Source: a virus. Taken from it: a stretch of 64,000 bases of DNA. This document shows, piece by piece, positions 1-40,896 of this stretch. A program made the position numbers and the translations under genes. The stretch covers positions 124,001 through 188,000 of IMG/VR virus record IMGVR_UViG_3300035212_003113; one strand, given 5' to 3'. Within the stretch, counting starts at the first letter, position 1. Each line of letters opens with the position of its first letter. The notes under the pieces were generated by a model that had not been told where the DNA came from, did no database searches, and saw only the letters and a program-made list of their open reading frames with translations.

Positions 1-164
1 TGGAGCACGAGATTGACCCGCTTGTCAATCGAACCTATGAAAAGATTGGTACGGAGCTGGTAAATGGTGATGTGCAGACTCTACAGAATCTGGTCGGCGA
101 CCAGAAGATGAAGGACACCTTTTACGAGGACGACACTTGGGTCGACCCGCTGGACATGCCCTGA
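1..164 (+). CDS. C-terminal end of an unidentified protein (partial)
   Basis: An open frame enters from the left edge, is in frame from base 3, and stops at TGA 162-164, giving 53 visible residues. The visible part is acidic and helical-looking and ends in Asp/Trp/Pro-rich residues (TWVDPLDMP). No motif is recognisable, so no function is proposed. The next gene begins one base after the stop, so this is probably the upstream member of the same transcription unit. Confidence 0.6.
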   Translation, partial: EHEIDPLVNRTYEKIGTELVNGDVQTLQNLVGDQKMKDTFYEDDTWVDPLDMP

Positions 165-165
165 T

Positions 166-1114: not shown

Positions 1115-1131
1115 AGGGACAAGGCAGGAAG

Positions 1132-5077: not shown

Positions 5078-5087
5078 CTGGAGATAT

Positions 5088-5771: not shown

Positions 5772-5774
5772 GGA

Positions 5775-8058: not shown

Positions 8059-8061
8059 AAC

Positions 8062-8520
8062 ATGAAAATAACTAAAGCATCAACCGCTGGAATTGAATTA
8101 ATCAAGAAATTCGAGTCATTCGTCGCCAAGCCTTATAAGTGCAGCGCCGGAGTGCCAACAATTGGCTACGGTGCAACGTACTATCCGGATGGTCGCAAGG
8201 TGACTCTGAATGATCCGCCCATTAGCGAAGCGTACGCAGTCTCGCTGTTAGAAGAGATGCTGGTTTCATTTGAGAAGTCAGTAGATTCTTTTTGCCGTGA
8301 TGACGTTAATCAGAATCAGTTCGACGCTCTTGTTTGCTTTGCCTATAACATAGGGACGAGCGCTCTAAAAAAGAGCACGCTGTTAAAGAAAGTAAACGAA
8401 AACCCGGCGGATCCTACGATCCGAGCGGAGTTCTTGAAGTGGAACAAGGCTGCTGGGCGAGTGCTAAAGGGCCTAACTCGTCGTCGCGAAGAAGAGGCGG
8501 CGCTCTATTTCAAAGCCTGA
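8062..8520 (+). CDS. Endolysin, GH24 lysozyme (muramidase)
   Basis: Cleaves the MurNAc-GlcNAc bond of peptidoglycan at the end of infection. The T4-lysozyme/R21 family catalytic triad spacing E-x8-(D/C)-x5-T is met by E18, C27 and T33 in KFESFVAKPYKCSAGVPTIG. The following GYG and the later FDALVCFAYNIGTSAL helix are family hallmarks. At 152 residues it is one minimal domain with no cell-wall-binding domain. No signal peptide or SAR segment is visible, so it needs a holin or other exit route. It begins 3 bases after the ligase stop; small genes with hydrophobic stretches follow. Confidence 0.95.
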   Translation: MKITKASTAGIELIKKFESFVAKPYKCSAGVPTIGYGATYYPDGRKVTLNDPPISEAYAVSLLEEMLVSFEKSVDSFCRDDVNQNQFDALVCFAYNIGTSALKKSTLLKKVNENPADPTIRAEFLKWNKAAGRVLKGLTRRREEEAALYFKA

Positions 8521-8521
8521 A

Positions 8522-8872
8522 ATGCAAGAAACTGCAGAAATACCGGAGCTGCTAGTACAGGTTGATTGCCCCGTTATTGTCCGGTTTATATCGGACTCTT
8601 TGCATGGCGAAAGTCCTGAGGGAATAGCTCTTGTTGAGCTCCGAGAAATTCCCTGGGAAAACTACTATGCACTTAGGTGTAGCAGCGATGTGCTAGAGGA
8701 AATCCGGCGTCTATCTTCTAAATACGACTTTTGTAAATGGGAATTTGAAGTAAAGAATATAGGCGAGGGCAAGCTTGTTGTCCTCCCAGAACAAGAAATA
8801 GTATGCAAGCAAGAGGATCCAGATGAAAAAAATAACACACAGCTGGCTACAGAAGAACCGAGACTTTCATGA
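8522..8872 (+). CDS. Hypothetical acidic protein
   Basis: A 116-residue acidic protein with no motif I recognise. Predicted beta strands (LLVQVDCPVIVRFIS) come first, followed by a helical middle and a charged, probably disordered tail. It starts one base after the endolysin stop and its 3' end overlaps the small gene at 8823 by about 50 bases in another frame. The position suggests co-expression with the lysis gene, but it has no transmembrane or signal segment that would make it a holin or spanin. Confidence 0.55.
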   Translation: MQETAEIPELLVQVDCPVIVRFISDSLHGESPEGIALVELREIPWENYYALRCSSDVLEEIRRLSSKYDFCKWEFEVKNIGEGKLVVLPEQEIVCKQEDPDEKNNTQLATEEPRLS

Positions 8873-8981
8873 CCGATATGGAATGAAGCCGGTCATTAGC
8901 CGAGCGCCGTGGTACTGGCGTCTATGGTTCGCCGTAACCAATCCAATTACATATGTTTTGTTTGGATTCAAGCGCCTATGA
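8823..8981 (+). CDS. Small hydrophobic protein (52 residues)
   Basis: A short frame starting at ATG 8823, inside the end of the preceding gene, and stopping at TGA 8979-8981. A basic N-terminus (MKKITHSWLQKNR) is followed by a Trp/aromatic-rich hydrophobic stretch (WYWRLWFAVTNPITYVLF) and a basic end, which resembles a tiny inner-membrane protein. The stop overlaps the next gene's ATG (ATGA), the layout used throughout this genome, and the codons are ordinary, which supports a real gene. It is two genes after the endolysin, so a holin-like role is possible, but no holin family is recognisable. Confidence 0.5.
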   Translation: MKKITHSWLQKNRDFHDRYGMKPVISRAPWYWRLWFAVTNPITYVLFGFKRL

Positions 8982-9409
8982 TGCCCCGTCTTGCACTGCG
9001 CGCAATAGCAGTATCTGCCTGGAAATGGATGCCAGGTATGATGGCTAATGGCCGCATACTTGACTTTAGTCCTGCCGGCAGCACAGTAATAAGAGGCACT
9101 TTTCTAGTTACCGAAGTAGATGGCAATATACCGCGAACCGCTTGGGGATCTCAGGCAATACTAGATGCCTCACCGGTACTGGAAGATCCTGCTACAAAAG
9201 GCTGCTTGCTGCAGCTTGTCCGCAACGCATTCCCAGAGGCGCCTGCTACAACGGATAGCATCCTTGCCTGGTGCAAGGCCGAGCGGCGAGACAGGCACAA
9301 GTGGGTTTGCAATTACAAGAACAATGATGGATTTTGCCAGGCAATTGGCGACACCGAAGAAGAGGCTCTAGTGCTCGCACTAGAGGCTTCTGATGGAGAT
9401 GCAAAATGA
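8978..9409 (+). CDS. Hypothetical protein
   Basis: A 143-residue protein of unknown function. ATG 8978 is preferred over upstream in-frame starts because it makes a 4-base overlap with the previous stop. The first 25 residues are helical and weakly hydrophobic. The C-terminal third has KWVCNYKNNDGFCQAIGDTEEEALVLAL, a strand-turn-helix pattern like the short phage domains that end in EEA-AL and often occur next to other small early genes. No catalytic motif is visible. Confidence 0.55.
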   Translation: MMPRLALRAIAVSAWKWMPGMMANGRILDFSPAGSTVIRGTFLVTEVDGNIPRTAWGSQAILDASPVLEDPATKGCLLQLVRNAFPEAPATTDSILAWCKAERRDRHKWVCNYKNNDGFCQAIGDTEEEALVLALEASDGDAK

Positions 9410-9615
9410 ATAAAGCACCAAACATGTCAGATGATATTGAGCGCATTGCAAAAGAATATTTTCGTGTAGAAACCTTAGATACGCGCCGCAGTGATCGCCT
9501 GGACTTCTATGATGTCGCCGTCTGGAGCATTAAGTCGGCACTGACTGCGGCATATATGGCTGGCGCATCTGCTCGCAAAGACGTTAAAGTTCAGACCGTA
9601 AGCGGTGATGCGTGA
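9406..9615 (+). CDS. Small protein, DUF6900-like
   Basis: A 69-residue protein. The core (IERIAKEYFRVETL, then RLDFYDVAVWSIKSAL and AAYMAGA) resembles a small family found on plasmids and phages in which an ET-LDFxxVxVWxIxxAL-AAYxAG pattern is conserved (I believe this is DUF6900). Function is unknown; it looks like a helical DNA- or protein-binding domain. Both ends overlap neighbours by 4 bases. The family name is from memory and needs a profile search. Confidence 0.5.
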   Translation: MNKAPNMSDDIERIAKEYFRVETLDTRRSDRLDFYDVAVWSIKSALTAAYMAGASARKDVKVQTVSGDA

Positions 9616-9986
9616 AGCTCGTTTATGTTGCCGGTCCGTATCGTGGCCCATCTACATGGCAGATCGACCGCAACATAAGTGCTGCACGCGAATGGGGTAT
9701 GCTGGTCGCAATGTGCGGAGCATATCCGGTAATTCCTCATTCAAATACTGCTCATTTTGATGGTACACTAGATGACCGATTCTGGCTTGAAGGCACTCTC
9801 GAGTTGCTATCAAGATGCGACGGCAGCATATTCATCCCTGGATGGATCCGGTCTACCGGATCTCGTGGTGAATGGACCTTAGCAGAGCGCATGGGAATTC
9901 CTGCTTTGGATCTAGAAGAAGTAGATCTTGGGTCGTCAATCAAGATACTAACTGGCTGGATTTCTGGCCTAGGTGCTCGCAAATGA
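9612..9986 (+). CDS. DUF4406 / nucleoside 2-deoxyribosyltransferase-like protein
   Basis: A 124-residue single-domain protein with the N-terminal signature LVYVAGPYRGPS, then ERN-like IDRNI, a middle VIPHSNTAHF, and FIPGWIRSTGSRGEW with a glutamate before the last helix. This is the DUF4406 branch of the nucleoside 2-deoxyribosyltransferase fold, which cleaves or transfers N-glycosidic bonds of nucleotides. A role in nucleotide salvage or in making or removing modified nucleotides is reasonable. It starts at GTG 9612, overlapping the previous stop, and ends overlapping the next ATG. Confidence 0.7.
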   Translation: MKLVYVAGPYRGPSTWQIDRNISAAREWGMLVAMCGAYPVIPHSNTAHFDGTLDDRFWLEGTLELLSRCDGSIFIPGWIRSTGSRGEWTLAERMGIPALDLEEVDLGSSIKILTGWISGLGARK

Positions 9987-10426
9987 ATGCAACAATGGCA
10001 GCTAAGTTCAAGGCACTTGTAGACAAGCTCGAGGGCACGTCCCTACCGCATGGCGCGCTCGCCTGCAGCGATAGCCGGCGCTGGCGAGATCCTGCCGTTG
10101 ATACAGAGCTACTGCTATCAAAAGCAGAGGCCGCCGGTTCCGCTGATTTCGAGGAAGTGCTGATGCTATGTGATCGCATTCACGAACTAGAGGCCGAGCT
10201 AGACTTTTTAAACTCTTCGTATGCGCCTGATGATGATTCAAATCTAACTGCAGGCGGCATCAAGATTGCGCGAAATGCACGAGCACTGATTGCCTTGAAG
10301 ACAAAAAATGAACGGCTGGCTGGCGCGTGCAAAACTGCTATTTCAGAGATACTGCTTGCGTCGGAATTGTCTACTGAAGCAAGAAATCGAATGCTTCTCG
10401 TTATCTCTGCCGCACTATCTGACTGA
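9983..10426 (+). CDS. Hypothetical helical protein
   Basis: A 147-residue, mostly helical protein with probable coiled-coil stretches (ADFEEVLMLCDRIHELEAEL and KNERLAGACKTAISEIL). The start ATG 9983 overlaps the preceding stop. A rho-independent terminator follows at 10451, so this is the last gene of the first transcription block. No family recognised. Confidence 0.55.
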   Translation: MNATMAAKFKALVDKLEGTSLPHGALACSDSRRWRDPAVDTELLLSKAEAAGSADFEEVLMLCDRIHELEAELDFLNSSYAPDDDSNLTAGGIKIARNARALIALKTKNERLAGACKTAISEILLASELSTEARNRMLLVISAALSD

Positions 10427-10450
10427 ACCCGCCGTCTGCCACTTTATCCC

Positions 10451-10490
10451 GAGCCGATCCAGTATTACGATTGGATCGGCTCAGATTTTT
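10451..10490 (+). terminator. Rho-independent terminator
   Basis: An 11-bp perfect stem (GAGCCGATCCA with TGGATCGGCTC) encloses a 10-base loop and is followed by AGATTTTT. It ends the 1-10.4 kb block and separates it from the lon gene. Confidence 0.85.
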
Positions 10491-10539
10491 AATCTGTAAG
10501 ATTCTAAGACAAATGCTGCATTCCGCAGCCGGAGTATAA

Positions 10540-12960
10540 ATGACATCAAGTAGTCGTCCAGAATTCAATATGAGCGAAGTGCCCGAGCAGCTACCTCTCC
10601 TGCCACTTCGCAACAGCGTATTTTTTCCAGGGGCGGTTATGCCGCTCACAATCGGCCGCCAGAAGACCATCCGTCTTATCGAAGAGACTATGCGCGAGAA
10701 TGCGCTTATTGGCGTCGTGGCTCAGCGTTCGCCCGAGATCGACGACCCAGCCGCTACCGATATGTATCAGATCGGCACGATTGCGCGAGTGATCAAGCTT
10801 ACTCGCACGGGCAAGGAAGGTTTTTCCATCGTAGTGGAGGGCCTTGCCCGATTTAAGACTGATGAGATTACCCAGACCGATCCGTACTTCTTTGCTCGTG
10901 TAACGCCACTGCTTGACGTTGGCGCGGGCGACGCCGAGACGGCTGCGCTCGCAGCAACAGTAAAGGCGACTGCTCGTGAAATCGTCGATATGCTTCCCGA
11001 GATGCCAGTCATGGCCAAGCAGCTACTCGAGAGCATCTCTGACCCAGGCCACCTGGCAGATCTCATCACGGCGAACATGGATGCCATGATCGAGGAAAAG
11101 CAGGAAGTTCTTGAGTCACTAAACGTCAAGAACCGACTGAAAGCCGTTCTCAATCTGCTGACTCAGCAGGCTGAGGTCACTAAGCTGAGCAACAAGATCA
11201 ACTCGCAGGTAAAAGGCGAGATGAGCAAGTCGCAGCGCGATTACTACCTCCGTCAGCAGATGAAGGCAATTAAGGACGAGCTAGGTGAGCGCGAGGATGA
11301 CGAGAGCGGGCTTGACGAGCTAGAGCGTCGACTGCGTAACGCCGGTCTCTCTGAAGAGGCGGAGAAGGCCGCTAATCGTGAGCTGCGACGCCTCCGCAAC
11401 ATGCAGCCAACCCAGGCTGAGTACACTGTAGCGCGTACCTATCTCGAGTGGCTTGCCGAAATGCCATGGGTCACTGCTTCTGTAGATAATCTTGATATCA
11501 GCAATGCCCAGCGCCAACTTGACGAGGACCACTACGGCCTCGACAAGATTAAGAAGCGTATCGTCGAGTACCTCGCCGTCCGCAAGCTGAAGGCCGACAT
11601 GAAAGGCCCAATCCTTTGCTTTGTAGGCCCACCCGGTGTAGGCAAGACATCACTCGGTCGTTCAATCGCTGATAGCCTTGGCCGCAAATTTGGGCGTATT
11701 GCGCTGGGCGGTGTTCGTGATGAGGCCGAGATCCGCGGTCATCGTCGCACATACATTGGCGCTCTCCCAGGTCGCCTTATTCAGGCTATGAAGAAGGCTG
11801 GCACAACGAACCCGGTAGTTCTTCTTGACGAGATCGACAAGCTCGGTCATGACGTACGAGGAGATCCCGCTGCTGCGCTGCTTGAGGTACTTGATCCAGA
11901 GCAGAATAACAGCTTCAATGACCACTACCTTGATTTGCCATATGACCTTTCCAAGGTCCTGTTTATCGCGACGGCTAACCAGCTCGACACAATTCCTGCG
12001 CCGCTCCGTGATCGCATGGAAATCATCGAAGTCCCTGGCTATACTTTCGAGGAAAAACTAAACATTGCTAAGCAGCACCTGGTGCCAAAGCAGATGCGCG
12101 AACACGGTATCACTGATGCACACATCGAGATCCCTGATGCGACCCTGTTGAAGCTTGCTATGAGCTATACCCGCGAAGCCGGTGTACGTAATCTGGAGCG
12201 TGAGGTTGCTAGCGTTTGTCGCGGAGTTGCCGTAGATGTTGCTCGTCACGATGCCACTGCTGGTGAGTTTAACCGTGTTGTCGTAGATGTTTCCAAGCTA
12301 GATGACATCCTCGGCGCCGAGCGCTACTTCAATGAAACTGCCGAGCGCACGTCGGTCCCTGGCGTTGCGACCGGTCTTGCCTGGACGGCCGCAGGCGGCG
12401 ACCTGCTCTTCATCGAAGCAACCAAGATGGGCGGCAAGGGCTCACTGATCCTTACGGGCCAACTTGGCGATGTCATGAAGGAATCGGCTCAGGCAGCCAT
12501 GTCATGGATCCGCAGCCGTGCTGTAGACCTCGGCATTGCGACTGACCTTGAGCACCACTTCCTTGACAAGAGCGACCTGCACCTCCATTTCCCGGCTGGC
12601 GCAATTCCAAAGGATGGTCCTTCTGCCGGCGTAACGATTACTACTGCAATTGTTTCGCTGCTAACTGGCAAGAACGTACGCTCTGATACTGCGATGAGCG
12701 GCGAGATCACTCTGCGCGGCCACGTTCTACCAGTAGGCGGAATCAAGGAAAAGGTACTTGCTGCGCATCGCGGTGGTGCTCGTCGCGTAATCCTGCCCGC
12801 TCGCAACGAAAAAGATCTACGTGATATTCCAAAGAATGTACGCGAAGAGATGGAGTTCATCTTTGCGAAGACAATCGATACCGTGCTGGAGAATGCTATC
12901 GAGGGCGGCTTTCACTTTAGAATGGGTGACGGCACTACAGTGCCTCAGGCCGATGCCTGA
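10540..12960 (+). CDS. lon: ATP-dependent Lon protease (LonA type)
   Basis: Unfolds and degrades protein substrates in the cytoplasm as a ring. At 806 residues it has the full LonA layout: an N-terminal substrate-binding domain ([19 protein letters not shown], typical of LAN domains), a helical linker, an AAA+ module with Walker A GPPGVGKT (363-370) and Walker [10 protein letters not shown], and the protease domain with the Ser-Lys dyad S695 in KDGPSAG and K738 in [14 protein letters not shown]. The S-K spacing of 43 equals that of E. coli Lon. It starts at ATG 10540 behind GGAG, although ATG 10570 is also possible. It is flanked by terminators on both sides, so it is likely its own transcript. 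A complete Lon in a phage is uncommon. Confidence 0.97.
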
Positions 12961-28928: not shown

Positions 28929-31900
28929 TCAGATTATCCACCAAGCGCTGCCATCCGATTGAATCTTTATTGCTTCATACTGTGTGCTGAGCGTGTATGT
29001 TGTCGCGCCGTCTATTAGTTCGGACGCATCAGCATCTACGGTGACAATATTCGCCGTGATGTCTTTTTTCTTTATAGTAAATATGCGTTCGACTGCTGAT
29101 GCAGCGGATGGCAGCGTCATCGTTATTGCGCCGGAAGAAGCATCGGCCAAAATTGTGCCATCGGAAGAGGCCAGAGTATAATTGGCAGTTTTGGTTGAAA
29201 TCGGCGCAGTGCTGTTCTGTGCGGCGCCCGAGGTCCATGACAGAGTTCCGCTTCCATTGTTTGTTAGAATAGAATTTGCAGAGCCCTGAGATGATGGGAA
29301 GCTATATGGGATATCGTTTATTCTAGTTAGATCCCCGCTAGAGCTTACCTGGAACTGCGAGCTGGCGCCGACGGATAGCGCCGAAGCTGGCGCGTTCGTA
29401 CCGACACCGACACGCGCATTCGTCGTGTCGACGTCGAAGATGGTCGAGCCCGCTGCGTTCTGCACCGAGAATGCGGTCGTGCCGTCCGACGTGTTCCTCG
29501 AGAGCACGACGCCGTCGTTGCCGACGCTGAAAGTGGTCGTGCCGTTATCACGGGCAAGGAAGATTGGATCGCCCTTGTCCATGTTGTCTGCTATCAGCGC
29601 CGCTGAGGCGTTGACCGTAGGCTGCGACGCGCCTGTGGTCTGCAAAGCGAACAGGCCGCCGATGCGGATACCGCTGTTGTTCTTCGCCATGCCCGTGACG
29701 GCTATGTTGGCACCAGTGCCGTCGCCTGTTGTGTTGCCGAAGACGGCGTAGTTGCGGGCGCCGTTCGACGCGAGGCCCATCATACCGATGTTGTGGCCAG
29801 ATGCCGTCGTGCCCGCAGCCGAGCCTTGCAGCGCGAAGTTGGCTTGTAGCGCCGAGACGGGGTCTTGTCCGCTGCCTGCGATCACGGTGCCGAAGCTGCC
29901 CGCGTAAGAAGTTGACGGCGTACCTGCGCCGCTCAAATAACCGATAACGCCGTAGACCGGGGCGACGACGCTCGCAGATACGCTTCCTTCAATGTACGAA
30001 ACGATGGTTCCGCCGCCAGGGGTCAGGGTTGCGTCGACGTTCAGCGCGTACACGCCACTGGCCGTCGAGCCTGCCTGCACGTCGACGACGTGCGCCGGAG
30101 TTGCTATGCCTACGCCTAGGCGATTATTTGAATCGTCCCAGTACAGGTTGGAATCCGATGATAGCGATGAAGTGCCGCTCCAAAATGCCACGCGCGTAGC
30201 TACGCCACTGCCTGTAACAGTACCTGCTGGTGACCATGACAGGTTGCCCGAGCCATCATTTGTCAGCGCGCCCGACGCATTCGCCGCCGGGAACGTCGTC
30301 GTCTGGCCCCGGATAGCGACAATGTCGCCCGAGGAATTAACTTGGAACTGAGAGGATGAGCCAACAGATAATAGCGATATAGGACTTGTAGTCCCTATGC
30401 CAACGCTCCCGGCATTTGTGATACGCACACGCTCAGTCGTTGAGCTGCCTAACGTAGTAAATCCATCAGTGCCGCTAGCAGTCGTGTGAAATTCAATTCG
30501 ACCGCCGCTCGCCGTCGACGTAAAAGCCTGCTCGGCCTTCATAGTCATCATCGCGCCGTAGTTAATGCCGCCCGTGGCAGTCCAACCTGCACCGAGCACA
30601 TTGATCATGCCGTCGCCAGCGCCGATCTGCGTCGGCGCGGCCTTCGTTCCTCTCGAACGCACACCGGCAAACTGACCACCGCGATATGACTCTTGAAGCA
30701 CGGTTCCAGCGGCGCCGTGCCCAAGCATCACCGCGCCTGCTGTCACGTCAGAACTGTCAAACGTAAACTGCCCGTATACAGTCGACGTTCCAACCAGAAA
30801 CACGGGCGATCCGCCCGACTGCTGGAAGCGCGCGATCTCCGTGCCGTTGACGCCGACACCGATAATATCGTTCGACGGCGAGAAGAAGCCGCTGTTCAGG
30901 TTGTCGCGGAAGGCGACGGCGGGAGCGGCGGCGCTACCATCGGGGATGGCGAGTTGGCCGCTGGCGATGTCAAGGGCGGCAACGGGGGCGTTGGTGCCGA
31001 TACCCAGTTTACCGCTGCCCGTGTTGTCCCAATAGAGGTTCGCATTCGACGACAGCGACGAAGCGCCATCCCAGAATGCCACACGCGTTGCAGTACCGCT
31101 GCCGGTGACCGTGCCACTTCCGCCCGCCGCAGCCCACGACACGTTGCCGGCGCCGTCTGTCGTGAGTACTTCACCGCTCGCGCCGTCTATCATTGGAAGG
31201 GTAAATGCATCGCTTATATTTACCGGAGTGGTGACGGAACCGATGGTTACCCCAGTTGTTAAATAATAGGCCGAATTATTTCCTATTTTAATTGGTCCGC
31301 CATCATTATCAATCCACAGCGGCTTCTCAATCGGATACTCGTTATTGGTATAGCGAAGCGAAAGACCAGGCGAGAATCCAAGTGACCCCTGAAGCTGTAG
31401 GAGTGCAGTGTCGTCGGTAGCGCCGAGCTTAAGATAAAGCGCAGGGTCGCCCAGATCTAGACCGAGTGCAGCCTCGTTGCCCCCTATAGAAGGGACCAAC
31501 GGCCCCGCCACAAATCGGGCATACTGACTGGATAAAATTCCTTCTACTCCAAGATTCTCGACTACCACTGCTCCAGTAGTCAGCCACTTCAAGGCAGAGC
31601 TGCCGTCAAAAACTCCTGCATTGCTAAATTGAATCGCCCGATCTGGACCGCCTGGTGCGCCACTTGCAGGCGAATCCCACGATAGATTTCCGGCTCCATC
31701 GTTCGTTAATACAGTTCCGGCAGAGCCCACGGCCGCAGGCCAGGCCGCATCAACGCCTCCAGACCCCAGAAACAAGGTTCCTATTGCAGAAATCTGAATG
31801 TCAGCAAAGCTTGACAGCGATATATTTTCTGTGCCAGAGACAGAAAACTCGCCATTCCCGGAATCCGTTGTAATCGTGTTGCCCGACTCATAAGCAGCCT

Positions 31901-32216
31901 GTAAGCTAGAGCTAGCAGAGGAAAGAAGGGCAAGTAGGCTGTCAACACTTATTTTATTTAACTCTGTAGAGGCATAATCTATGTACGCAATGTAGCCGTC
32001 TAGCAGCGGTGGTACTATTGGAGCCACCAGGAATTCGCCATAAAAGTAGCCATCTGCCGAGCCGGACAACCCCTGATATGACCCACCATCCAGTGAAAGC
32101 TCTATTCGGCCAAGGTCGTAGTTATACCTAATTATGGCCATACCGGCTTCTGGAACGCCTAGACCCTCGCCCGCCCTAAAGGTCAGAAAAGGAATTGTTT
32201 GTTTTTTCTGCGTCAT
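28929..32216 (-). CDS. Tail fibre protein 4 (first gene of the fibre operon)
   Basis: A 1,095-residue protein starting at ATG 32216 with GAGGAG close upstream; an in-frame start further out lacks such a site. The N-terminal about 60 residues (FLTFRAGEGLGVPEAGMAIIRYN) are a small adaptor-like domain. The shaft repeats LYWDDSNNRLGVGIATP-type units (at least four), the signature of long fibres that often end in S74 domains, but here the protein ends in a short beta cap (STQYEAIKIQSDGSAWWII) with no S74 dyad. It shares a near-identical block with fibre 3 (around 26820-26880 and 30275-30330). Confidence 0.88.
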   Translation of the reverse strand: MTQKKQTIPFLTFRAGEGLGVPEAGMAIIRYNYDLGRIELSLDGGSYQGLSGSADGYFYGEFLVAPIVPPLLDGYIAYIDYASTELNKISVDSLLALLSSASSSLQAAYESGNTITTDSGNGEFSVSGTENISLSSFADIQISAIGTLFLGSGGVDAAWPAAVGSAGTVLTNDGAGNLSWDSPASGAPGGPDRAIQFSNAGVFDGSSALKWLTTGAVVVENLGVEGILSSQYARFVAGPLVPSIGGNEAALGLDLGDPALYLKLGATDDTALLQLQGSLGFSPGLSLRYTNNEYPIEKPLWIDNDGGPIKIGNNSAYYLTTGVTIGSVTTPVNISDAFTLPMIDGASGEVLTTDGAGNVSWAAAGGSGTVTGSGTATRVAFWDGASSLSSNANLYWDNTGSGKLGIGTNAPVAALDIASGQLAIPDGSAAAPAVAFRDNLNSGFFSPSNDIIGVGVNGTEIARFQQSGGSPVFLVGTSTVYGQFTFDSSDVTAGAVMLGHGAAGTVLQESYRGGQFAGVRSRGTKAAPTQIGAGDGMINVLGAGWTATGGINYGAMMTMKAEQAFTSTASGGRIEFHTTASGTDGFTTLGSSTTERVRITNAGSVGIGTTSPISLLSVGSSSQFQVNSSGDIVAIRGQTTTFPAANASGALTNDGSGNLSWSPAGTVTGSGVATRVAFWSGTSSLSSDSNLYWDDSNNRLGVGIATPAHVVDVQAGSTASGVYALNVDATLTPGGGTIVSYIEGSVSASVVAPVYGVIGYLSGAGTPSTSYAGSFGTVIAGSGQDPVSALQANFALQGSAAGTTASGHNIGMMGLASNGARNYAVFGNTTGDGTGANIAVTGMAKNNSGIRIGGLFALQTTGASQPTVNASAALIADNMDKGDPIFLARDNGTTTFSVGNDGVVLSRNTSDGTTAFSVQNAAGSTIFDVDTTNARVGVGTNAPASALSVGASSQFQVSSSGDLTRINDIPYSFPSSQGSANSILTNNGSGTLSWTSGAAQNSTAPISTKTANYTLASSDGTILADASSGAITMTLPSAASAVERIFTIKKKDITANIVTVDADASELIDGATTYTLSTQYEAIKIQSDGSAWWII

Positions 32217-32401
32217 ATGCTCCTCAGCGCCAGGGGATCCAGCCCAATACAATGCACGGAGAACCATAGTTATTAAATGCGGGTGGTCCGCGAGCATTAA
32301 TTATATTTGCGTCAGATCGCAAACAAGCCGCGACCGCCGGCTGCAACTGAAGGCAACTAATTGAATAACAGTCTTTCTGATCTTTTCACATGGAGCAAAT
32401 A
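32217..32401. promoter_or_regulatory. Divergent intergenic region, likely promoters both ways
   Basis: This 185-base gap separates the reverse fibre operon from the forward gene at 32402, so transcription should start in both directions within it. It contains A/T-rich patches (around 32270-32310 and 32358-32372), but I cannot define a -10/-35 pair with confidence, and a phage sigma factor may recognise a different sequence. GGAG at 32392 serves the forward gene. Confidence 0.4.
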
Positions 32402-33301
32402 ATGAAATTTCCGCTTATAAAGATGGCAGCTGACCCCAGCCTAGGCAAAACCTGGCACGATATCTTTAAAAAAACTCCTGTCGCCCAGTTTGTTTCTTCC
32501 TTCAGCGGAAGCGACGATGCTTCGCGTAAAAAGGCACTTCAGCCGATATACGACAGCTACGTGGTATATATGACCACGCTGTCTGATGCAGCGGAAAAAG
32601 AACTGGCAATGAAAAATATTCAAGAGTTGGTGACGGCTCTAACTGCCAGCCCCAAGGCTCCGCAGGCAACGCCCGCGACGGGCAATGCCTCCCCTGCTGC
32701 GCAACCAAAAAAGACCGATACCAATAAATCTGGCCCGCACCCTGGTATGACCGCTCTACAGCAAAAGCTAAATGAATATCTCGCTGCAAATCCAAAAGAA
32801 GGCGTTTCGCCAGTAAAAGTGACCGGCTACCAGGGTGACCAGGGCACATGGGGAGTGATAAAGAAAGTATGGCCGCAATGGTTCGATGGCAACAAGACGA
32901 AGTTCAAAAGCTATTCACAGGTGACTGGCTGGATTGAGAAAGAGATGAGCGCGAAGCCGGCCGGCGCGCCAGATGCTCAAAAAGCTGCACTAAACAACAA
33001 AATTGTCTCAGAAGAAGATCGGCAATTGGTGGCTGCATGGAGAGCATTCTTGCAGGCAGACTCGCTAAATGTAGGCGCTGATGTCGTCAGCACATATGCG
33101 GCCGGCAGCCCTAAGACGGTCGGATCCAATATTGCAAAATACATTGCAGATGGAAAGATGAAAACACCGGTAAAAGCGCCGCTTGAAGCTGCGCAGGCCC
33201 ATCTTGCAATTGGTTTCCCAGCAGAAGCGACAAAGGCCCTTGCCCAAGGCGCTGCAGCTGCAAAAAAATACAAGGGCATGCGAAAGCTGGATAATAAATG
33301 A
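32402..33301 (+). CDS. Hypothetical, possibly virion-associated protein
   Basis: A 299-residue protein. ATG 32402 (MKFPLIKMA) is preferred over ATG 32390 because GGAG lies 6 bases before it. A helical N-domain (residues about 1-75) is followed by a Pro/Ala/Gln-rich linker (about 78-108) and two further helical segments, the second ending in EATKALAQGAAAAKKYKGMRK. The short start MxFxLxKxA is shared with the giant protein at 54717 (MNFQLFKTA). No enzyme motif; the linker and neighbouring fibre genes suggest a structural or internal protein, an inference only. Confidence 0.55.
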   Translation: MKFPLIKMAADPSLGKTWHDIFKKTPVAQFVSSFSGSDDASRKKALQPIYDSYVVYMTTLSDAAEKELAMKNIQELVTALTASPKAPQATPATGNASPAAQPKKTDTNKSGPHPGMTALQQKLNEYLAANPKEGVSPVKVTGYQGDQGTWGVIKKVWPQWFDGNKTKFKSYSQVTGWIEKEMSAKPAGAPDAQKAALNNKIVSEEDRQLVAAWRAFLQADSLNVGADVVSTYAAGSPKTVGSNIAKYIADGKMKTPVKAPLEAAQAHLAIGFPAEATKALAQGAAAAKKYKGMRKLDNK

Positions 33302-33388
33302 GCGTCTGCTGCACACAGCATGAGAAATAAACCAACTTTTGACCTCGAGTCCTCGGCATAGTCCGAGGACTTCTTTTTTGCCGCTTGA
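33301..33388 (+). pseudogene. Broken copy of the RNase HII gene start
   Basis: Reading from ATG 33320 gives MRNKPTFDLESSA, a TAG stop, SEDFFFAA and a TGA stop. This matches, position for position, the start of RNase HII at 35444 (MIKNSPTFALESSA, W, SEDLFFAA, C). Homology also covers the bases upstream of the ATG (agcgtct, agcatga). The copy ends where the catalytic DEAG motif would begin. With the intact copy at 35428-35514 it forms an imperfect direct repeat of about 88 bases around the exostosin-like gene. Confidence 0.85.
33347..33379 (+). terminator. Hairpin plus T-run, probable terminator derived from coding repeat
   Basis: GTCCTCGG and CCGAGGAC form an 8-bp stem with a 6-base loop, followed by TTCTTTTTT. 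It lies 46 bases after the stop of the gene at 32402 and can end that transcript. The same hairpin occurs, slightly changed, inside the intact RNase HII coding sequence near 35475-35507, so the structure came with the duplication. Confidence 0.65.
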
Positions 33389-33487
33389 TAAAGAGAGGTG
33401 CGCGAGGCCATCAGTAACAAGCCGAATATCAATATATTAGCAAAACGACAGAGGCGGGCAAGATAAATGATACTTAAATATTAAAAT

Positions 33488-35389
33488 ATGAAGTATTTTG
33501 TATACAAAGTAGATCACGACTTTAAGCGGCCAGGTGGCTTTCAAGAGGCCACGGATGCAGAGGACAAGATATGGTCGTGTCTAAAGATGTTTCACCAAGA
33601 AGTCGACAGCATCGACAATGCTGACATAGCCTTTATAGGATTGAATAATGCTTCATTTTACTTCAATAAGGGTGACCTTAAGAAAGTGTGGCAAGAGTCT
33701 GTTTGCCCAAGACTCGTCAATAAAGATATCCCACATGTGGCAATATTCACTTACGTTATAAATGAAGATGACCTGAGCTTTATCCCGCCATGGATAACAA
33801 TATGGGCATACGAAACAGAATGCTCGCATCACGACTCCCCGTCTCTGCAGACCACGGACAGCGGATGCGGAGACCGGATGTGCATGATACCATATGTACT
33901 CACTCCTCAGACACATCCTGCGGCAGGAGTTATTGAGACCACAAATATAAATCCTGAAAACTTCAATACCGAGCTGTGGACCAGGAGATCTAACACGGCA
34001 TTTATAGGCTCTTTACAGGCAGGCGGGCGACCGCGCATAAATACTCGCGCTAGCCAAGTTATTGGCTGGCAGTCGCAAATTGGGTGCGACATATATGGAG
34101 ATCGACAAGCTACCGAGCCAAATGACACGTACTCTAGATACAAATTCGCTCTAATTCTGCGAGGGGATACTCCGACTCGTAAAGCGTTCTATCAAGCCAT
34201 TGCAGCCGGGGCAATTCCAGTAATTACTGAAAGCGCATGGCAACAGTACAGCGAGCTGTACAGAGGTCATTGCGAAAGCCTGGCCGACATAGTCGTAGTT
34301 GTGCCAGATAATGCCGAGCTATGGGACTGCGCCGAAATACAAAAGATCCTAAATAAAAGAGCAATGGAGTGCGCTACGTTGCTTCCACGGCTGCACAGCT
34401 GGTCGAGCAAATATCTTGATTATGACAGCGGCGGGGTCGTAGATGCGGCAATGCGCGCAACTCTGGCCAAAGTGAGGAAGCCAGCCATGCCCTTGGCATA
34501 CATCCACTCACTGGAGCCAGCAAGCGTATATCGACCGACAAGCGTAAAGATTAGTGAACAAGAGGTGATAACTGAAGAAAACATACTAGAAAGCCAGTAT
34601 GCCCTGGAGCAAATAATTCTCAAAACCGTCTACAACTATCCTTATAAAACTGGTTGCCTAGACAAGGCAACGGCTGCAATAGTACCAGTTCATACCTTTT
34701 TAACATGCTGGAATCGGCCGAATCACTATTCCGTGATCGACTCTGTAAACGTAATAAAAAAAGCTTTAAATGCGCTCCCTGCATGGAAAAACAGCAGCGT
34801 GCCCCATTACCTTGGATATGCCGATGTTCTTTGGAATGACGAGCGCGTCTTTCTCCGACACGTAGATATTCCTGATAATACAACAGTTATTGCCCTGGAG
34901 GCTTGCGACCTTCCGGTGCAACAAGAGGCAGTCCCATTTCCATGCGGAAGCATGCCTGGTGTTCTTTCATCAGCGGATCGGCAATTAGCTGTGTACATAG
35001 GAAGGGAGAGAGAAGAGGTCAGCGGGTACGATATCGATTACGAGATGATAAACACACCTGGCTGGCACTCTACAAATACCCAAAACACCAGGATTGTGCA
35101 GGCCTACTCCCAGCATAAATTTTCTTTGCAACCTCACGGAGACCGAGTGACAAGGCGAGGCTTCTATCAGTCCGTGGCATGCGGGTGCATACCCGTGATT
35201 ACTGCTGACTGCGTCAAGGCGTATAGCGATGCTACCGGGCTGGATGTATCAGAGTTTTGCATAATTATCCCGGAGTGGCACGAAAACGTTGTAGAACTAT
35301 TGCGACAATCAGACTTCGAGTCCATGCAAAAGAAATTGCCCCAGTTATCATTATCAGGCAGGATCTTGAAAATCACGGGGTTGTACTGA
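33488..35389 (+). CDS. Tandem exostosin-like (GT47-type) glycosyltransferase
   Basis: A 633-residue protein with two copies of an exostosin-like donor-binding module. Copy 1 has YKFALILRGDTPTRKAFYQA followed by IAAGAIPVI (about residues 220-247). Copy 2 has HKFSLQPHGDRVTRRGFYQS followed by VACGCIPVI near residues 540-567. The pattern KF-L-P-GD-x-T-R-FY-xI/V-xGxIPVI is that of GT47/exostosin glycosyltransferases, usually eukaryotic but present in some bacteria and giant viruses. Two modules may mean two sugar-transfer activities. No Shine-Dalgarno site is visible and the upstream DNA is A/T-rich. The gene sits between a broken and an intact RNase HII start. Confidence 0.8.
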   Translation: MKYFVYKVDHDFKRPGGFQEATDAEDKIWSCLKMFHQEVDSIDNADIAFIGLNNASFYFNKGDLKKVWQESVCPRLVNKDIPHVAIFTYVINEDDLSFIPPWITIWAYETECSHHDSPSLQTTDSGCGDRMCMIPYVLTPQTHPAAGVIETTNINPENFNTELWTRRSNTAFIGSLQAGGRPRINTRASQVIGWQSQIGCDIYGDRQATEPNDTYSRYKFALILRGDTPTRKAFYQAIAAGAIPVITESAWQQYSELYRGHCESLADIVVVVPDNAELWDCAEIQKILNKRAMECATLLPRLHSWSSKYLDYDSGGVVDAAMRATLAKVRKPAMPLAYIHSLEPASVYRPTSVKISEQEVITEENILESQYALEQIILKTVYNYPYKTGCLDKATAAIVPVHTFLTCWNRPNHYSVIDSVNVIKKALNALPAWKNSSVPHYLGYADVLWNDERVFLRHVDIPDNTTVIALEACDLPVQQEAVPFPCGSMPGVLSSADRQLAVYIGREREEVSGYDIDYEMINTPGWHSTNTQNTRIVQAYSQHKFSLQPHGDRVTRRGFYQSVACGCIPVITADCVKAYSDATGLDVSEFCIIIPEWHENVVELLRQSDFESMQKKLPQLSLSGRILKITGLY

Positions 35390-35427
35390 GGCAATGCTCT
35401 CGGCTCTGCGTCTGGGCTTTTTTTCTA

Positions 35428-35514
35428 AGCGTCTCGCGTTAGCATGATCAAAAATTCGCCAACATTCGCTCTTGAGTCCTCGGCGTGGTCCGAGGATCTC
35501 TTTTTTGCTGCTTG
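35428..35514 (+). repeat. Second (intact) copy of the RNase HII-start direct repeat
   Basis: The stretch agcgtct ... gctgcttg covers the leader and first about 23 codons of the RNase HII gene and is an imperfect direct repeat of 33301-33388. The two copies bracket the exostosin-like gene, which looks like the trace of a cassette insertion or a tandem duplication followed by loss. Confidence 0.8.
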
Positions 35515-36055
35515 CGATGAGGCAGGCTATGGCTGTGCTGCAGGCAGCATGTGGGTGGCCGCAACAATCTGGCCCAAGAATAGTCCCATTCTGCCGTCGA
35601 TGTCGGGCATAAAAGACAGCAAAAAGACTACAGCGGCACAGCGAGAAGAGCTGGTCAAGCTGATTAAAGACAGCTGTCAGTGGTTCTTATGGGAGATAAC
35701 AGTCGACCAGATCAACTCAGGCAATCCATATTGGCTTCGCTTCGAAGCCGCTGACACAGGCCTGGCATCTCTGCCCCCGCTAGTCACATGCTTTGATGGG
35801 AATGTCTGCTTGAAGAATAACAAGCACCACAACACTTGCCAAGTAAAAGGTGACGCGATAAGTATCAGCATAGCTGCGGCGTCTATTCTTGCGAAACATG
35901 CTAAAGATTTAGAATGTAAGGACCTACACGAAAAACATCCAGCATATGGATTCATTAATCACAGCGGATACTTAACAGAAGAGCACACAAAAGCACTAAA
36001 GACGTTCGGCCCAGCGCCCTGTCATCGCAGCAAATACATATCAGCTCACATATAA
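35444..36055 (+). CDS. rnhB: Ribonuclease HII
   Basis: Cuts the RNA strand of RNA-DNA hybrids and removes misincorporated ribonucleotides or primers. The 203-residue protein has the four acidic catalytic residues: D25 and E26 in CDEAGYG, D118 in TCFDGN, and D137 in VKGDAISISIAAASILAKHAKD. DSKKTTAAQRE and the end pattern GYLTEEH, GPAPCHRSKY also match the family. The usual DEAGRG is DEAGYG. The first 22 residues are extra compared with bacterial enzymes and are the part duplicated at 33301. No clear Shine-Dalgarno site is visible. The polymerase-like gene follows 45 bases later. Confidence 0.93.
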   Translation: MIKNSPTFALESSAWSEDLFFAACDEAGYGCAAGSMWVAATIWPKNSPILPSMSGIKDSKKTTAAQREELVKLIKDSCQWFLWEITVDQINSGNPYWLRFEAADTGLASLPPLVTCFDGNVCLKNNKHHNTCQVKGDAISISIAAASILAKHAKDLECKDLHEKHPAYGFINHSGYLTEEHTKALKTFGPAPCHRSKYISAHI

Positions 36056-36100: not shown

Positions 36101-37795
36101 ATGAGCGCGCAATGGCTGCCGGTACTGGCAAGCCCTAAGACAAGTAACAAGCATCTCGGGAGAAAAGGTCAAGTGACTTTTTCCGGCGATGCCTTTGATA
36201 AACTTGTTGCAAGCGCAAATATCTCGCTGCAGAACTGGCCGCGCATGGTGCCGCACCGTGCCGAATTTCGCGTTCTAGTCGAGGCGACATTTCCTGGGTT
36301 CTGGGCGCGAGCAGAGGGCGTTGGCGTAGAGCTGGCTACGCGTCTTGTCATGGCCGCCGGACGTGCCGCCGAGACTGGTGCAGCAGTCAAGATCCCAGCT
36401 GGCGATGTTTTTCTATATAAAGCGAAGCAGCTAGGTTTTGCTCAGAAAAAGAACCACTCTTACTTTGCAGAGCGCGAGCGCGCTCGTCAGTTTGTTGCGC
36501 GACGTGGCGGTGGCAGCAGCGCATCACGTATCCTAAAAGATGCCGTAAATAAACTAGGCATGCAGAATCACTGCAGCATTGCCGTCTATGCTGCGCCAAG
36601 CGCCACTCACGTAGTGTTGATACCACATTCTGCCGACGCAGATGTCGGCAGAGTTTATACTGCCGGCCGCGGCGACCAATTCTATCTGGCTGCCGAAGAA
36701 GCAGGAAACAACAACAATCATGTGTCGCGCTACATGACCAGCGTACCAGTAGGCCGCTGGCAGTCTACCGCCTCTAGGCAGCAAATACTGCAGCTTATTG
36801 ATGAGCGCTGCTCACATGCTGGTTATCGCGAAATTCTAAAAGAGACCGTGATCGTCGGCATGGCGAGCGACTTTCGCTCAAACTATATTCAAGAGCACGA
36901 CTCGCAGCGAGTATTTGCGACTGGCGCCAGCATGCAGTTTATGCCATCCTGGTTGCGCAGTGCGTTGTTTCCAGAATGGTTTGAGATGGACTTCTCAAAC
37001 ATGCATCTTGCAATCCTCAATAGCCAAGCCGATCTCGGCATCAACCTGGATACTTCTATTTGGACCCAGATCATGGATACCTGGGAGACTGCGATCAATG
37101 CCGCAGGAGAAGCCCTGGGTCGCGAGGCGATGCTAGATGAGGCCGGAATAAAAGACCTGTTCGACGGCAGCATGAACAGCGGAAATAGCAAAACACTGTT
37201 TTTCGATACCTCCAAGGTTGATCGGACTGCCCTAAAGAAGGCGCTAAAGGTGAGCCTATATAGCCTGCAATTCGGGATGACAGCGCCAGCAGCGCGGCGC
37301 GGCTTTACTGGCGACTTGCTTAAAATGGGCTTCTCGCGCGGAGAGGCTACATTCCTGGGGAACCTTTGGTCACGCGATCCGATCCTGCAAAAGATTGCCA
37401 GTGGTATAAAGGCATACTGCGAAACACATGCCATTAGCCCCAGCGAATTGGCGCTCCGCTGCCAGGCAATCGAAACCACCCTGGTAAAAGAAATCTATAC
37501 AGTTGCACGCAGATTTAAGCGCTCAGACGTCTGCATCACCCTGCACAGCCATGACGGTGTATCAGTGTGGTCGCGTAGCGCGAGCGTAGGGCGAAAGTTT
37601 CATGCGCGCTGTGCGGCACGATGTGCGCGCCTTCTGGAGAAGCTAGGAATCCAGTCACGACTGGAGAGCAAAGGCTTGCCAAAAGAGGTCCGGACAGAAA
37701 AGGCACCCGCGCCCAAGTCAGAAGTGACGTCTTGTGTAGAACTGGCCCTGGTCACTGAGCGCGATTCACGTCCCGTGGCAACCGGCCCTCCTTAG
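36101..37795 (+). CDS. Divergent family A polymerase-like protein
   Basis: A 564-residue protein with spaced matches to the three palm/finger motifs of family A polymerases. Motif A: EMDFSNMHLAIL with D297. Motif B: K379-x3-K383-x3-Y387-x3-F391-G392, the same spacing as R754, K758, F762, Y766 and G of E. coli Pol I. Motif C: HSHDGVSVW with H484 and D485. Both catalytic Asp are kept, but the Pol I steric-gate Glu position is His, and the Glu after the motif C Asp is Gly. No exonuclease domain is seen; the first 290 residues are unrecognised. It could be a repair or replicative DNA polymerase, a primase-like enzyme or a single-subunit RNA polymerase. AGGA precedes ATG 36101. Confidence 0.55.
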   Translation: MSAQWLPVLASPKTSNKHLGRKGQVTFSGDAFDKLVASANISLQNWPRMVPHRAEFRVLVEATFPGFWARAEGVGVELATRLVMAAGRAAETGAAVKIPAGDVFLYKAKQLGFAQKKNHSYFAERERARQFVARRGGGSSASRILKDAVNKLGMQNHCSIAVYAAPSATHVVLIPHSADADVGRVYTAGRGDQFYLAAEEAGNNNNHVSRYMTSVPVGRWQSTASRQQILQLIDERCSHAGYREILKETVIVGMASDFRSNYIQEHDSQRVFATGASMQFMPSWLRSALFPEWFEMDFSNMHLAILNSQADLGINLDTSIWTQIMDTWETAINAAGEALGREAMLDEAGIKDLFDGSMNSGNSKTLFFDTSKVDRTALKKALKVSLYSLQFGMTAPAARRGFTGDLLKMGFSRGEATFLGNLWSRDPILQKIASGIKAYCETHAISPSELALRCQAIETTLVKEIYTVARRFKRSDVCITLHSHDGVSVWSRSASVGRKFHARCAARCARLLEKLGIQSRLESKGLPKEVRTEKAPAPKSEVTSCVELALVTERDSRPVATGPP

Positions 37796-37992: not shown

Positions 37993-38379
37993 ATGAAATT
38001 AGAACAAAGTCTTCATATCATGAATGAGTTAGAATTATCACGCTACTTGCTCGCCCGCGGGTTTCCCGAGGAGCTACCGTGTTTCTCTGTCTACGACCTC
38101 TCAATGTTCATGATGGGTCGCCAGGTCACGGAGGCTGAGATTATTACTGGTGGCAAGTCCGTATGCTTGTTTTGGTCATCTAAGAATCTAATTGCTACTA
38201 CAAATATTCTAGAGGAGCCGTGTGCAAGCACCGTTATTCTATCTTCTTTGCGTGGCAGCAATTTCTCTATCTCACTGAGGAGAGCCGGGTTCCACAGTTC
38301 TATTCATCCAATTCAATATACTCCAGAGTGGGTGGACTGTTTTGTGTTTTCGTTGGGCGCGGGGGTGAAGTATGAGTAA
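37993..38379 (+). CDS. Cassette small protein, copy A
   Basis: A 128-residue protein of unknown function, a clear paralogue of 39173-39559. Shared blocks are MKLE-x-LH near the start, CLFWSSKNL/CVFWSSGKL in the middle, SSLRGSNFS/SALRGSSFS, and the end SIHP-x-YTPEWV-CFVF. It overlaps the next gene by 8 bases, as copy B overlaps its partner by 4. Constant pairing with a tag-bearing glycosyltransferase suggests that it is a partner or acceptor-recognition protein for that enzyme, an inference from gene order only. No Shine-Dalgarno site is evident. Confidence 0.7.
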   Translation: MKLEQSLHIMNELELSRYLLARGFPEELPCFSVYDLSMFMMGRQVTEAEIITGGKSVCLFWSSKNLIATTNILEEPCASTVILSSLRGSNFSISLRRAGFHSSIHPIQYTPEWVDCFVFSLGAGVKYE

Positions 38380-39157
38380 GACGGCAGCGCAACAGTATGC
38401 CGAGCTTAAACGAAATAAGCTAAACGCCGCGCGTCAAGCAAAGCTAGAATTAGCTGCATCTAGAGCCAGAAGAGCATCTGTTGCCAAAGATGACAGCATT
38501 GTGCCTTCTGCATCTGCCAATACTATCGGGAAAAGGAATATGAAAAAGGTACCGCTTTACTTCAATTTTGTTGGATCCAGACGCGACATGCTTGACACAG
38601 CGATGGAGTCATATGATCGAGTCGCTGGCGATCTGATAGACGTCAGAGTGCACTATTCATACAGACCGCGCAGATTCACAGAATGCTTAAATGAAATCCT
38701 GAAGATAAATGATGAGCCATACTTCTTCGCTCACTTTGATTCTGTTCTGACAGATCGTAGCGCTATAGAGAATATCCTTGCACATGAGCCAGGTCCCGCT
38801 GGACTAGTAGCGCACTGCTTGATTGTGGACCTTCTCATGTTGGTCGTGCCGAAGGCCGTAAGAAGCATAGGCGGGTGGGACGAAGCATACAGCAATTCCT
38901 GCATGGATCTCGACCTGCAACAGCGGCTGCATAGGAGTGGCCAGACGATGCACATAATTCATTCTGATATAGAGCAGGGCCGCGGAGTTGATCATTTTAA
39001 TGCCAGTGCCGCTAGAAAAGATCCTGCTATGAGAAAAGTGTATGGCGTAACAATGCAGCAGGATTACGACCGATACTATGACAAGTATCACAATCGGTCG
39101 GACCCAGGCTATTTGCATGTGTGTGAGTACATTAAAAAAGAATTTGGCGACGGCTGA
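38372..39157 (+). CDS. Tag-glycosyltransferase fusion, copy A (GT2-like, GT-A fold)
   Basis: A 261-residue protein in two parts. Residues 1 to about 36 are a basic helix (SKTAAQQYAELKRNKLNAAR...) shared almost exactly with the protein at 39556. Residues about 55-261 are a glycosyltransferase domain with HFDSVLTD where GT-A enzymes have the metal motif, GGWDEAYSNSCMDLDLQQRL, the usual GT2 acceptor-side GGxDE...DxDL signature, and a late His region. Substrate unknown. The tag could target the enzyme to DNA, to the partner protein or to the virion; its Lys/Arg pattern favours nucleic acid or an acidic partner. Confidence 0.72.
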   Translation: MSKTAAQQYAELKRNKLNAARQAKLELAASRARRASVAKDDSIVPSASANTIGKRNMKKVPLYFNFVGSRRDMLDTAMESYDRVAGDLIDVRVHYSYRPRRFTECLNEILKINDEPYFFAHFDSVLTDRSAIENILAHEPGPAGLVAHCLIVDLLMLVVPKAVRSIGGWDEAYSNSCMDLDLQQRLHRSGQTMHIIHSDIEQGRGVDHFNASAARKDPAMRKVYGVTMQQDYDRYYDKYHNRSDPGYLHVCEYIKKEFGDG

Positions 39158-39172
39158 TCTGGACTAGTCGGC

Positions 39173-39559
39173 ATGAAGCTTGAAGATCAACTGCATTTGC
39201 TAGAGCCTGTCAGCCTTGCAAGATTTTTTTCTTCCTGCGGTGGGTTTCCATCAGATTGCCAGAGTATGTCCGCGCACGAGGTCGCAGTGAGCTTGCTCAA
39301 CAGAGAGCTGTACGAAGCAGAATGGTCCACTGGAAACATGGAAACTGCTTGTGTATTCTGGTCATCAGGAAAGCTACGCTTAATAAGGCGTCAAACTTTT
39401 GACACTTTTGTGCCGCATGTGGTGGTGGTATCTGCACTTAGGGGTAGTTCGTTCTCGGCAAATGCTGTGCGCCTTGGTCTTTTGCGCTCTATTCATCCTT
39501 TTGCATACACTCCTGAATGGGTCGAATGTTTTGTGTTTGGCGCTAGGGGGGAGGTATGA
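39173..39559 (+). CDS. Cassette small protein, copy B
   Basis: A 128-residue protein, exactly the length of its paralogue at 37993 and with the same conserved Trp/Ser and PEW blocks (CVFWSSGKL, SALRGSSFS, SIHPFAYTPEWV). Divergence is spread evenly, so the duplication is not recent. The 3' end overlaps the next gene by 4 bases (ATGA). Function unknown. Confidence 0.7.
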   Translation: MKLEDQLHLLEPVSLARFFSSCGGFPSDCQSMSAHEVAVSLLNRELYEAEWSTGNMETACVFWSSGKLRLIRRQTFDTFVPHVVVVSALRGSSFSANAVRLGLLRSIHPFAYTPEWVECFVFGARGEV

Positions 39560-40896
39560 GCAAGACAGCAGAGCAACGTTATGCCGAGTTCAAGAGGAAT
39601 AGGCTAAATGCCGCGCGACAGGCCAGGATAGAAATGGCCAAGGAAAGGATGCGCAAAGCCTCCGCCATTAAAAATAGCGCCATTTCTTCTAGTCAGACAA
39701 CTGTATTAGATAGCCCGCCCCAAGAGTCACCGATAGCAGTCAGCCATGTAGATAGTTCTTCTGCCGAGCAAGCAAGCACCATTAGTGATGGCTTGTATCA
39801 AGGCCTAGGTGATGAAGAATTTATAATACGACAATTCAAGGATTTCTGTGGTCGCAGTCCCAGTGCAGGCGAACTCAATGCCCATGTCGGTTCGCTTGCA
39901 TCCATGTCGCGATCCGCCGTCAATGACAGATTTGCTTACTGTGACGAGGTCGTGCGCCGTACATGGGCACACAAGAGTGCGCCATTTGATTCTCGATCTA
40001 CATTTAGCGGCTTCCATGGATTGCGAATTGCTGTTCTTCTTACTGGTCACCTAAGAACATTTAAGCAAACCTATCCTGTTTTGCGTTCGCAATTAATTAC
40101 CCCGGCATCCGCAGACGTTTTTGTTCATACGTGGGATACGCTAGGCATCCAGAGGCATGATCCTATATATGGTCCTATTCCTGATGACACTCTAAAAGTC
40201 GATATCTCTGAGATATATAGACTGCTTCCGGAGACGGTTGACGTTAGAGTAGAGGGCAATGCTGCATTTATCGCATGTGCGAAAACGCGCAACAGTCGTC
40301 CATATGTATTTGGATCAGGCAGTGGTCCTAATTCGAAAATGCTTAGCGCTAAGCCGGTTCTTATCGAGAGTCAGTTGTACGGCATATCTTCTGCTTTTAA
40401 GCTAATGGAGCAGCACGAAATAAAAAACGGCTTCAGATATGATCTTGTTATAAAGCTACGCTCGGACATGGAGGTTTTAGATTTTTTTCCTGATCTGGCA
40501 AATTTGAGCACAAAGGATCTTTGGGTTTCAAGCCCACCAGAGAATAATCACAACCACCCTGTATGCTTTGCATGCGAGAGAGGGCCGCACGAAGGGTGTC
40601 ATGCGACAGATGTGTGCGATACATATGCATATGGTGGCCGCGAAGCGATGGCACATTACTGCAGTCTGTGGGATAATCTCGAGACAGTATATGCCCGCAT
40701 GTGCGCAGAAAATAATGTTAATATTATGGATCCAACCGCATCTCACGGTCTTAGGGATGGGCACGTAGTTGTTCCAATTTGGAAAAATGGCGCTAGCCAT
40801 CGTCTGCATTGCTTTTATCCAGAAAGAATACTAAGACTGTATCTAGAGGGCTGGCATCTGAAAAAAGGACGCGTTTCGTGCAAGGTGAAGCGATGA
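39556..40896 (+). CDS. Tag-glycosyltransferase fusion, copy B
   Basis: A 446-residue protein. Residues 1 to about 36 are the same basic helical tag as in 38372 (SKTAEQRYAEFKRNRLNAAR...). A Ser-rich linker is followed by a helical module at about 75-135 that resembles DUF4214 (FIIRQFKDFCGRSPSAGELN). The catalytic part begins at IAVLLTGHLRTFKQTYPVL with DVFVHTWDTLG and later YDLVIKLRSDMEVL, a pattern seen in uncharacterised glycosyltransferase-like proteins of marine phages and bacteria. The catalytic half is unrelated to that of copy A, so tag and catalytic domain have been mixed. Confidence 0.68.
   Translation: MSKTAEQRYAEFKRNRLNAARQARIEMAKERMRKASAIKNSAISSSQTTVLDSPPQESPIAVSHVDSSSAEQASTISDGLYQGLGDEEFIIRQFKDFCGRSPSAGELNAHVGSLASMSRSAVNDRFAYCDEVVRRTWAHKSAPFDSRSTFSGFHGLRIAVLLTGHLRTFKQTYPVLRSQLITPASADVFVHTWDTLGIQRHDPIYGPIPDDTLKVDISEIYRLLPETVDVRVEGNAAFIACAKTRNSRPYVFGSGSGPNSKMLSAKPVLIESQLYGISSAFKLMEQHEIKNGFRYDLVIKLRSDMEVLDFFPDLANLSTKDLWVSSPPENNHNHPVCFACERGPHEGCHATDVCDTYAYGGREAMAHYCSLWDNLETVYARMCAENNVNIMDPTASHGLRDGHVVVPIWKNGASHRLHCFYPERILRLYLEGWHLKKGRVSCKVKR

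Follow-up and report, generated by a model that had tools for sequence, protein, structure and literature searches.

The region described here lies in a window of 64,000 nucleotides, positions 124001-188000 in a phage record 371,675 bases long, in which a tail gene and rnhB, the gene for RNase HII, are separated by a 303-aa gene, a broken start of rnhB (the stub) and a glycosyltransferase gene. The features are listed below in window coordinates; L014 is one of two relatives used for comparison.

28929-32297, minus strand: tail gene
32160-32280: left flank shared with L014, comprising the tail gene start and the block upstream of it
32281-35427: additional DNA compared with L014, holding the 303-aa gene, the stub and the glycosyltransferase gene, delimited by blastn with both junctions aligned
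32390-33301, plus strand: 303-aa gene, whose stop codon abuts the leader box of the stub
33303-33387, plus strand: rnhB stub, made up of the leader (GCGTCT...AGC) and 22-23 codons from the ATG at 33320, with in-frame TAG and TGA
33347-33380, plus strand: intrinsic-terminator-like hairpin in the stub, 10 pairs with a loop of 6, then CTTTTTT
33488-35389, plus strand: exostosin-like (GT47) glycosyltransferase gene, 633 aa with two exostosin-like stretches (PF03016 Exostosin_GT47, E 1.2e-21)
35399-35425, plus strand: predicted weak terminator-like hairpin after the glycosyltransferase gene
35428-35514, plus strand: intact repeat copy, comprising the rnhB leader and first codons, with the same hairpin at 35476-35497
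35444-36055, plus strand: rnhB, RNase HII of 203 aa (PF01351, E 3.1e-26)
36101-37795, plus strand: 564-aa gene, which follows rnhB in all three phages and is the right-hand anchor of the comparison

Positions 33301-33387 and 35428-35514 form a direct repeat of 87 nt with 72% ungapped identity, at a spacing of 2127. Its core (33332-33387 and 35459-35514) is 82% identical over 56 nt, with an E-value of 2.5e-8 in blastn of the window and 2.7e-10 in blastn of the whole 371,675-base record, where no third copy was found; there are exactly two copies and no repeat family. The local alignment score of the repeat was 64, compared to a maximum of 26 among the 2000 Markov shuffles used to set the chance level. 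Judged by its letters, the upstream copy is confirmed as a broken rnhB start with similarity far beyond chance, in agreement with the earlier note, which had described some 88 bases of rnhB leader and first 23 codons repeated upstream with two stops. The two starts read as follows:

stub: ATG AGA AAT AAA CCA ACT TTT GAC CTC GAG TCC TCG GCA TAG TCC GAG GAC TTC TTT TTT GCC GCT TGA TAA
rnhB: ATG ATC AAA AAT TCG CCA ACA TTC GCT CTT GAG TCC TCG GCG TGG TCC GAG GAT CTC TTT TTT GCT GCT TGC GAT

The homologous part of the stub contains in-frame stops at codon 14 (TAG) and codon 23 (TGA), with TAA next, and ends one codon before the DEAGYG active-site motif (D25). Both copies are present at the same spacing in 3300043465_002540, a second contig from this phage (99.99% identical), which makes a misassembly limited to one record unlikely.

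The intact gene scores 92.9 bits against PF01351 (cut-off 25.8), with DEAGYG at residue 25 and DSKK at residue 58; against the NCBIfam RNase HII equivalogs its best E-value is 2.7e-42, yet the matches stay under the curated cut-offs. By these models the repeated codons are native to rnhB and the stub is the derived copy, because the NCBIfam matches begin at rnhB residues 5 and 10, placing residues 5-24 within the family.

The only gene between the two copies is the exostosin-like one, as had been noted earlier, and about 100 nt separate its start from the stub; it is the sole PF03016 gene in the record. A remnant of rnhB or of the 303-aa gene was sought in this spacer and rejected, the best candidate being 25 nt resembling 32934-32958, which 6% of controls matched. 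Foreign base composition of the insert was likewise discarded, as neither the glycosyltransferase gene (GC 0.474) nor the 303-aa gene (0.501) stands apart from its neighbors. The 303-aa gene has no detectable family match, and its earlier designation as a virion gene is unsupported. Its stop codon touches the leader box shared by both copies (TGA GCGTCT, with TAA GCGTCT as the counterpart at rnhB), which suggests that this gene once stood directly before an rnhB leader.

Besides the record of the window, three of the public viral contigs carry this rnhB, one of which is the same phage at 99.99%; three further pattern matches were unrelated. The two independent relatives are L014 (rnhB 83% and 564-aa gene 69% identical to those of the window) and L004 (rnhB 89%). 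Homology to L014 on the left (window 31677-32280 and L014 6657-7260 by blastn, with the block upstream of the tail gene start 90% identical over 61 nt) breaks off sharply in the alignment after ATTAAATGC at 32280 and returns at the rnhB leader. L014 has the tail gene start, ~150 nt and then rnhB, with ~80 bases in place of window positions 32281-35427. In L004, which has one rnhB copy, three other plus-strand ORFs occupy the interval between the tail gene and rnhB, so that the content of this interval differs in 3/3 phages. The stub, the glycosyltransferase gene and the 303-aa gene are absent at this site in both L014 and L004, each of which has one rnhB start. The expectation that relatives lacking the glycosyltransferase gene would have a single repeat copy is thereby borne out, and the opposite case, both copies without that gene, was found in neither L014 nor L004. 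An ancestor with the upstream gene running straight into rnhB, as the earlier note pictured it, is represented by neither relative, since the 303-aa gene too belongs to the extra DNA. Outside the same phage, the 303-aa gene and the glycosyltransferase gene had no match in viral_contigs, nor did the latter have any in phages or genome_contigs.

It is highly improbable that the repeat is a mere shared terminator motif and no gene remnant. Both copies do contain a perfect terminator-like hairpin, and a terminator at record position 227714 has the same GAGTCC...GGACTTCTTTTTT form; however, the homology spans the leader, the ATG and codons beyond the hairpin (MRNKPTFDLESSA compared to MSKQKPTFVLESSAW in L004), the differences are of the coding type, and the N-terminal motif fits the RNase HII family models.

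Across 57 aligned bases, the stub and the rnhB of the window differ at 11 positions, the stub and that of L004 at 11, and the stub and that of L014 at 18; the two intact genes of the window and L004 differ at 10/57. Third codon positions account for 8/11 differences between the stub and the rnhB of the window (binomial P 0.009), 7/11 between the stub and L004, and 6/10 between the window and L004 (77/104 over the whole intact genes of these two phages). Where the rnhB of the window has TCG before CCA, and TTC, changes common to none of the stub, L004 and L014, the stub has the states of the relatives (AAA before CCA, and TTT). This level of divergence, equal to that between alleles of different phages and coding in its pattern, argues against both a target duplication and a recent tandem copy; by this comparison, the stub is no recent duplicate and looks like an allele of a different phage.

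These counts bear on the mechanism proposed in the earlier note, in which a glycosyltransferase cassette entered where rnhB begins, doubling or rebuilding its target. The glycosyltransferase gene does sit exactly between the copies, as a single gene between predicted terminator-like sites (33347-33372 and 35399-35425), and in this it resembles a phage moron, defined as a one-gene insertion flanked by promoter and terminator (PMC3029335). Like a moron, it is an accessory gene missing between the same neighbors in L014 and L004, although the 303-aa gene is also extra. Unlike in morons, what stands upstream as a terminator-like element is a defunct fragment of the neighboring gene, and the extra DNA includes the 303-aa gene. 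No promoter for the glycosyltransferase gene stood out, there being no promoter excess over shuffles, and the only shared upstream motif was a Shine-Dalgarno-like 7-mer. A target duplication is identical at birth, whereas the copies here differ at 11/57 bases, in a coding pattern and much as rnhB alleles of different species do. Nor are the ends near-identical as in a transposon (72% over 87 nt, 82% over 56 nt), and the insert has no integrase, transposase or homing endonuclease, its only gene being the PF03016 one. Such a cassette is thus a very unlikely origin. What stands of the earlier proposal is the broken rnhB start and its single copy in phages without the glycosyltransferase gene; the target-duplicating cassette and a recent tandem duplication do not.

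An older tandem duplication of rnhB, in which the first copy died and its body was replaced by the glycosyltransferase gene, is possible but doubtful. It would fit the GCGTCT and AGC-ATG elements common to the leaders of the stub and rnhB, the one informative site that unites these two, and the further tandem duplicated gene starts 2-5 kb downstream. On the other hand, the copies are as distant as the rnhB genes of different phages, the TCG before CCA and the TTC of the window's rnhB are missing from the stub as from L004 and L014, the third-position pattern should be gone from a long-dead copy, and the rest of rnhB leaves no trace after the stub. Parsimony gives the stub no firm placement (informative sites 2:1:0, bootstrap 0.70/0.28/0.02, with 57-70 aligned bases), which is why an old duplication, the form in which the idea of an overwritten tandem copy is still viable, retains some weight; its recent form falls to the allele-level divergence. 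Selection on the hairpin could have slowed change in the stub, leaving its age uncertain.

We think it reasonably probable that the stub is instead what remains of the 5' part of an rnhB allele, stranded by module exchange among related large phages. On this reading the rnhB-polymerase block has a conserved left border, the GCGTCT box and rnhB start, with varied modules ahead of it in different phages. We infer two parents, one with the 303-aa gene immediately before its own rnhB and the other with the glycosyltransferase gene ahead of its own. The rnhB of the first parent would have been joined at about codon 23, through illegitimate recombination or very short homology, to DNA before the glycosyltransferase gene of the second. 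The right side, including the intact rnhB of the second parent, would have been brought along or added by homologous exchange, and the rnhB start of the first parent would have been left stranded. This reading predicts relatives in which the 303-aa gene, or the glycosyltransferase gene, stands immediately before rnhB; neither arrangement was found, the search covering viral_contigs for the 303-aa gene and viral_contigs, phages and genome_contigs for the glycosyltransferase gene.

In phages, those related to T4 among them, junctions usually show no mobile-element signatures and are ascribed to illegitimate exchange (PMC2993671, PMC3029335); the junctions described here likewise lack such signatures. 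The two copies share identical tracts of 9-11 bases, GAGTCCTCGGC and GTCCGAGGA, a length covered by the 3-13 nt used in T4 UvsX minihomology joining (PMC8262927). The difference from illegitimate recombination as described (PMC2993671) is that the exchanged border has kept its two ends, and thus the scar is readable. Junctions of swapped modules are mostly traceless; the dead allele of a neighboring gene lets the order of events be reconstructed here, and the case is a clear instance of ordinary phage mosaicism whose scar can be read unusually well. Since the 11-base tract GAGTCCTCGGC comes before the stub's first stop codon, a crossover there would excise the glycosyltransferase gene and leave rnhB intact.

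The hairpin of the stub, GAGTCCTCGG-CATAGT-CCGAGGACTT followed by CTTTTTT, lies 46 nt beyond the stop of the 303-aa gene. Its minimum free energy is -16.7 kcal/mol, compared to -15.1 for rnhB and -14.0 for L004. A position no more than 120 nt beyond a gene end is seen for 37/48 strong terminator-like hairpins of the record, a count in which a few may appear twice as the stretches overlap slightly. A role of the stub hairpin in ending transcription of the 303-aa gene is plausible, and the stranded codons may have been retained for that reason. This suggests that a broken gene start may be kept where it forms a terminator. Codon choice gives the internal hairpin of rnhB a higher stability than synonymous versions would have in the window (0.0012) and in L004 (0.011), with a value of 0.18 in L014; strong selection for it was set aside as unclear in L014 and, the window and L004 being related, only suggestive. 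A conserved hairpin immediately before the rnhB ATG was rejected too: 4/4 leaders can fold one, with a stability that, other than in L004, does not stand out from that of 55 leaders of the window.

A bolder version, in which the first codons of rnhB are both terminator and reusable border for module swaps, is unlikely. They would be a coding-sequence counterpart of PeSLs, which PMC4503421 describes, citing Arbiol 2010 and Comeau 2014, as mobile promoter/stem-loop cassettes shuffling the modules of T4-type phages. Common to both, as far as that account goes, is a repeated stem-loop terminator between shuffled modules; unlike the PeSLs of that account, the present element has two copies only, coincides with the beginning of a coding gene, and has no associated early promoter that could be found. 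If this version were true, each exchange would leave behind a stub that works as a terminator, and the glycosyltransferase gene could be lost when the stub recombines with rnhB, which would itself be left intact.

Other duplicated starts, which the earlier note had proposed to seek, were looked for in a direct-repeat scan of the record, run in 20-kb stretches with the window as one 64-kb piece. Direct repeats are many near both record ends (promoter-like repeats, gene families) and few in the interior. A second case did emerge at window 37993-40896, where 37993-39157 and 39173-40896 are two gene pairs: the 128-aa genes are related to each other, as are the initial ~40 codons of the genes that follow them, whereas the bodies of these second genes differ. 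The 128-aa gene and the MSKTA... N-terminus are doubled in the window (DNA 76% over 152 nt), and in L004 the counterparts of both bodies are separate genes without the shared MSKTA... start. As read from the sequence, there are two cases of duplicated starts ahead of different bodies within 9 kb. Separately, positions 351000-371675 and 1-12000 of the record (G000:C1) are densely populated with families of short direct repeats located at gene starts, as well as with tandem gene families; the repeat families near the record ends are probably repeated promoters.

The 564-aa gene to the right of rnhB has no Pfam match. A structural model of its product (mean pLDDT 61) resembles family-A DNA polymerases and T7-like/mitochondrial RNA polymerases, with VIA-align Z up to 10 over residues ~205-528, and contains the motifs DFSNMHL, KKALKVSLYSLQFGM and HSHDGV. 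PF00476 and PF00136 have no match anywhere in the record, and a PolIII alpha match (PF07733) lies at record position 189881. The product is possibly a diverged member of the PolA superfamily that is paired with RNase HII. The DNA of rnhB is unusually well conserved toward its 3' end (window ~35895-36055): the last 60 nt are 93-97% identical across the three phages, compared to 60-90% in the other segments of that comparison.
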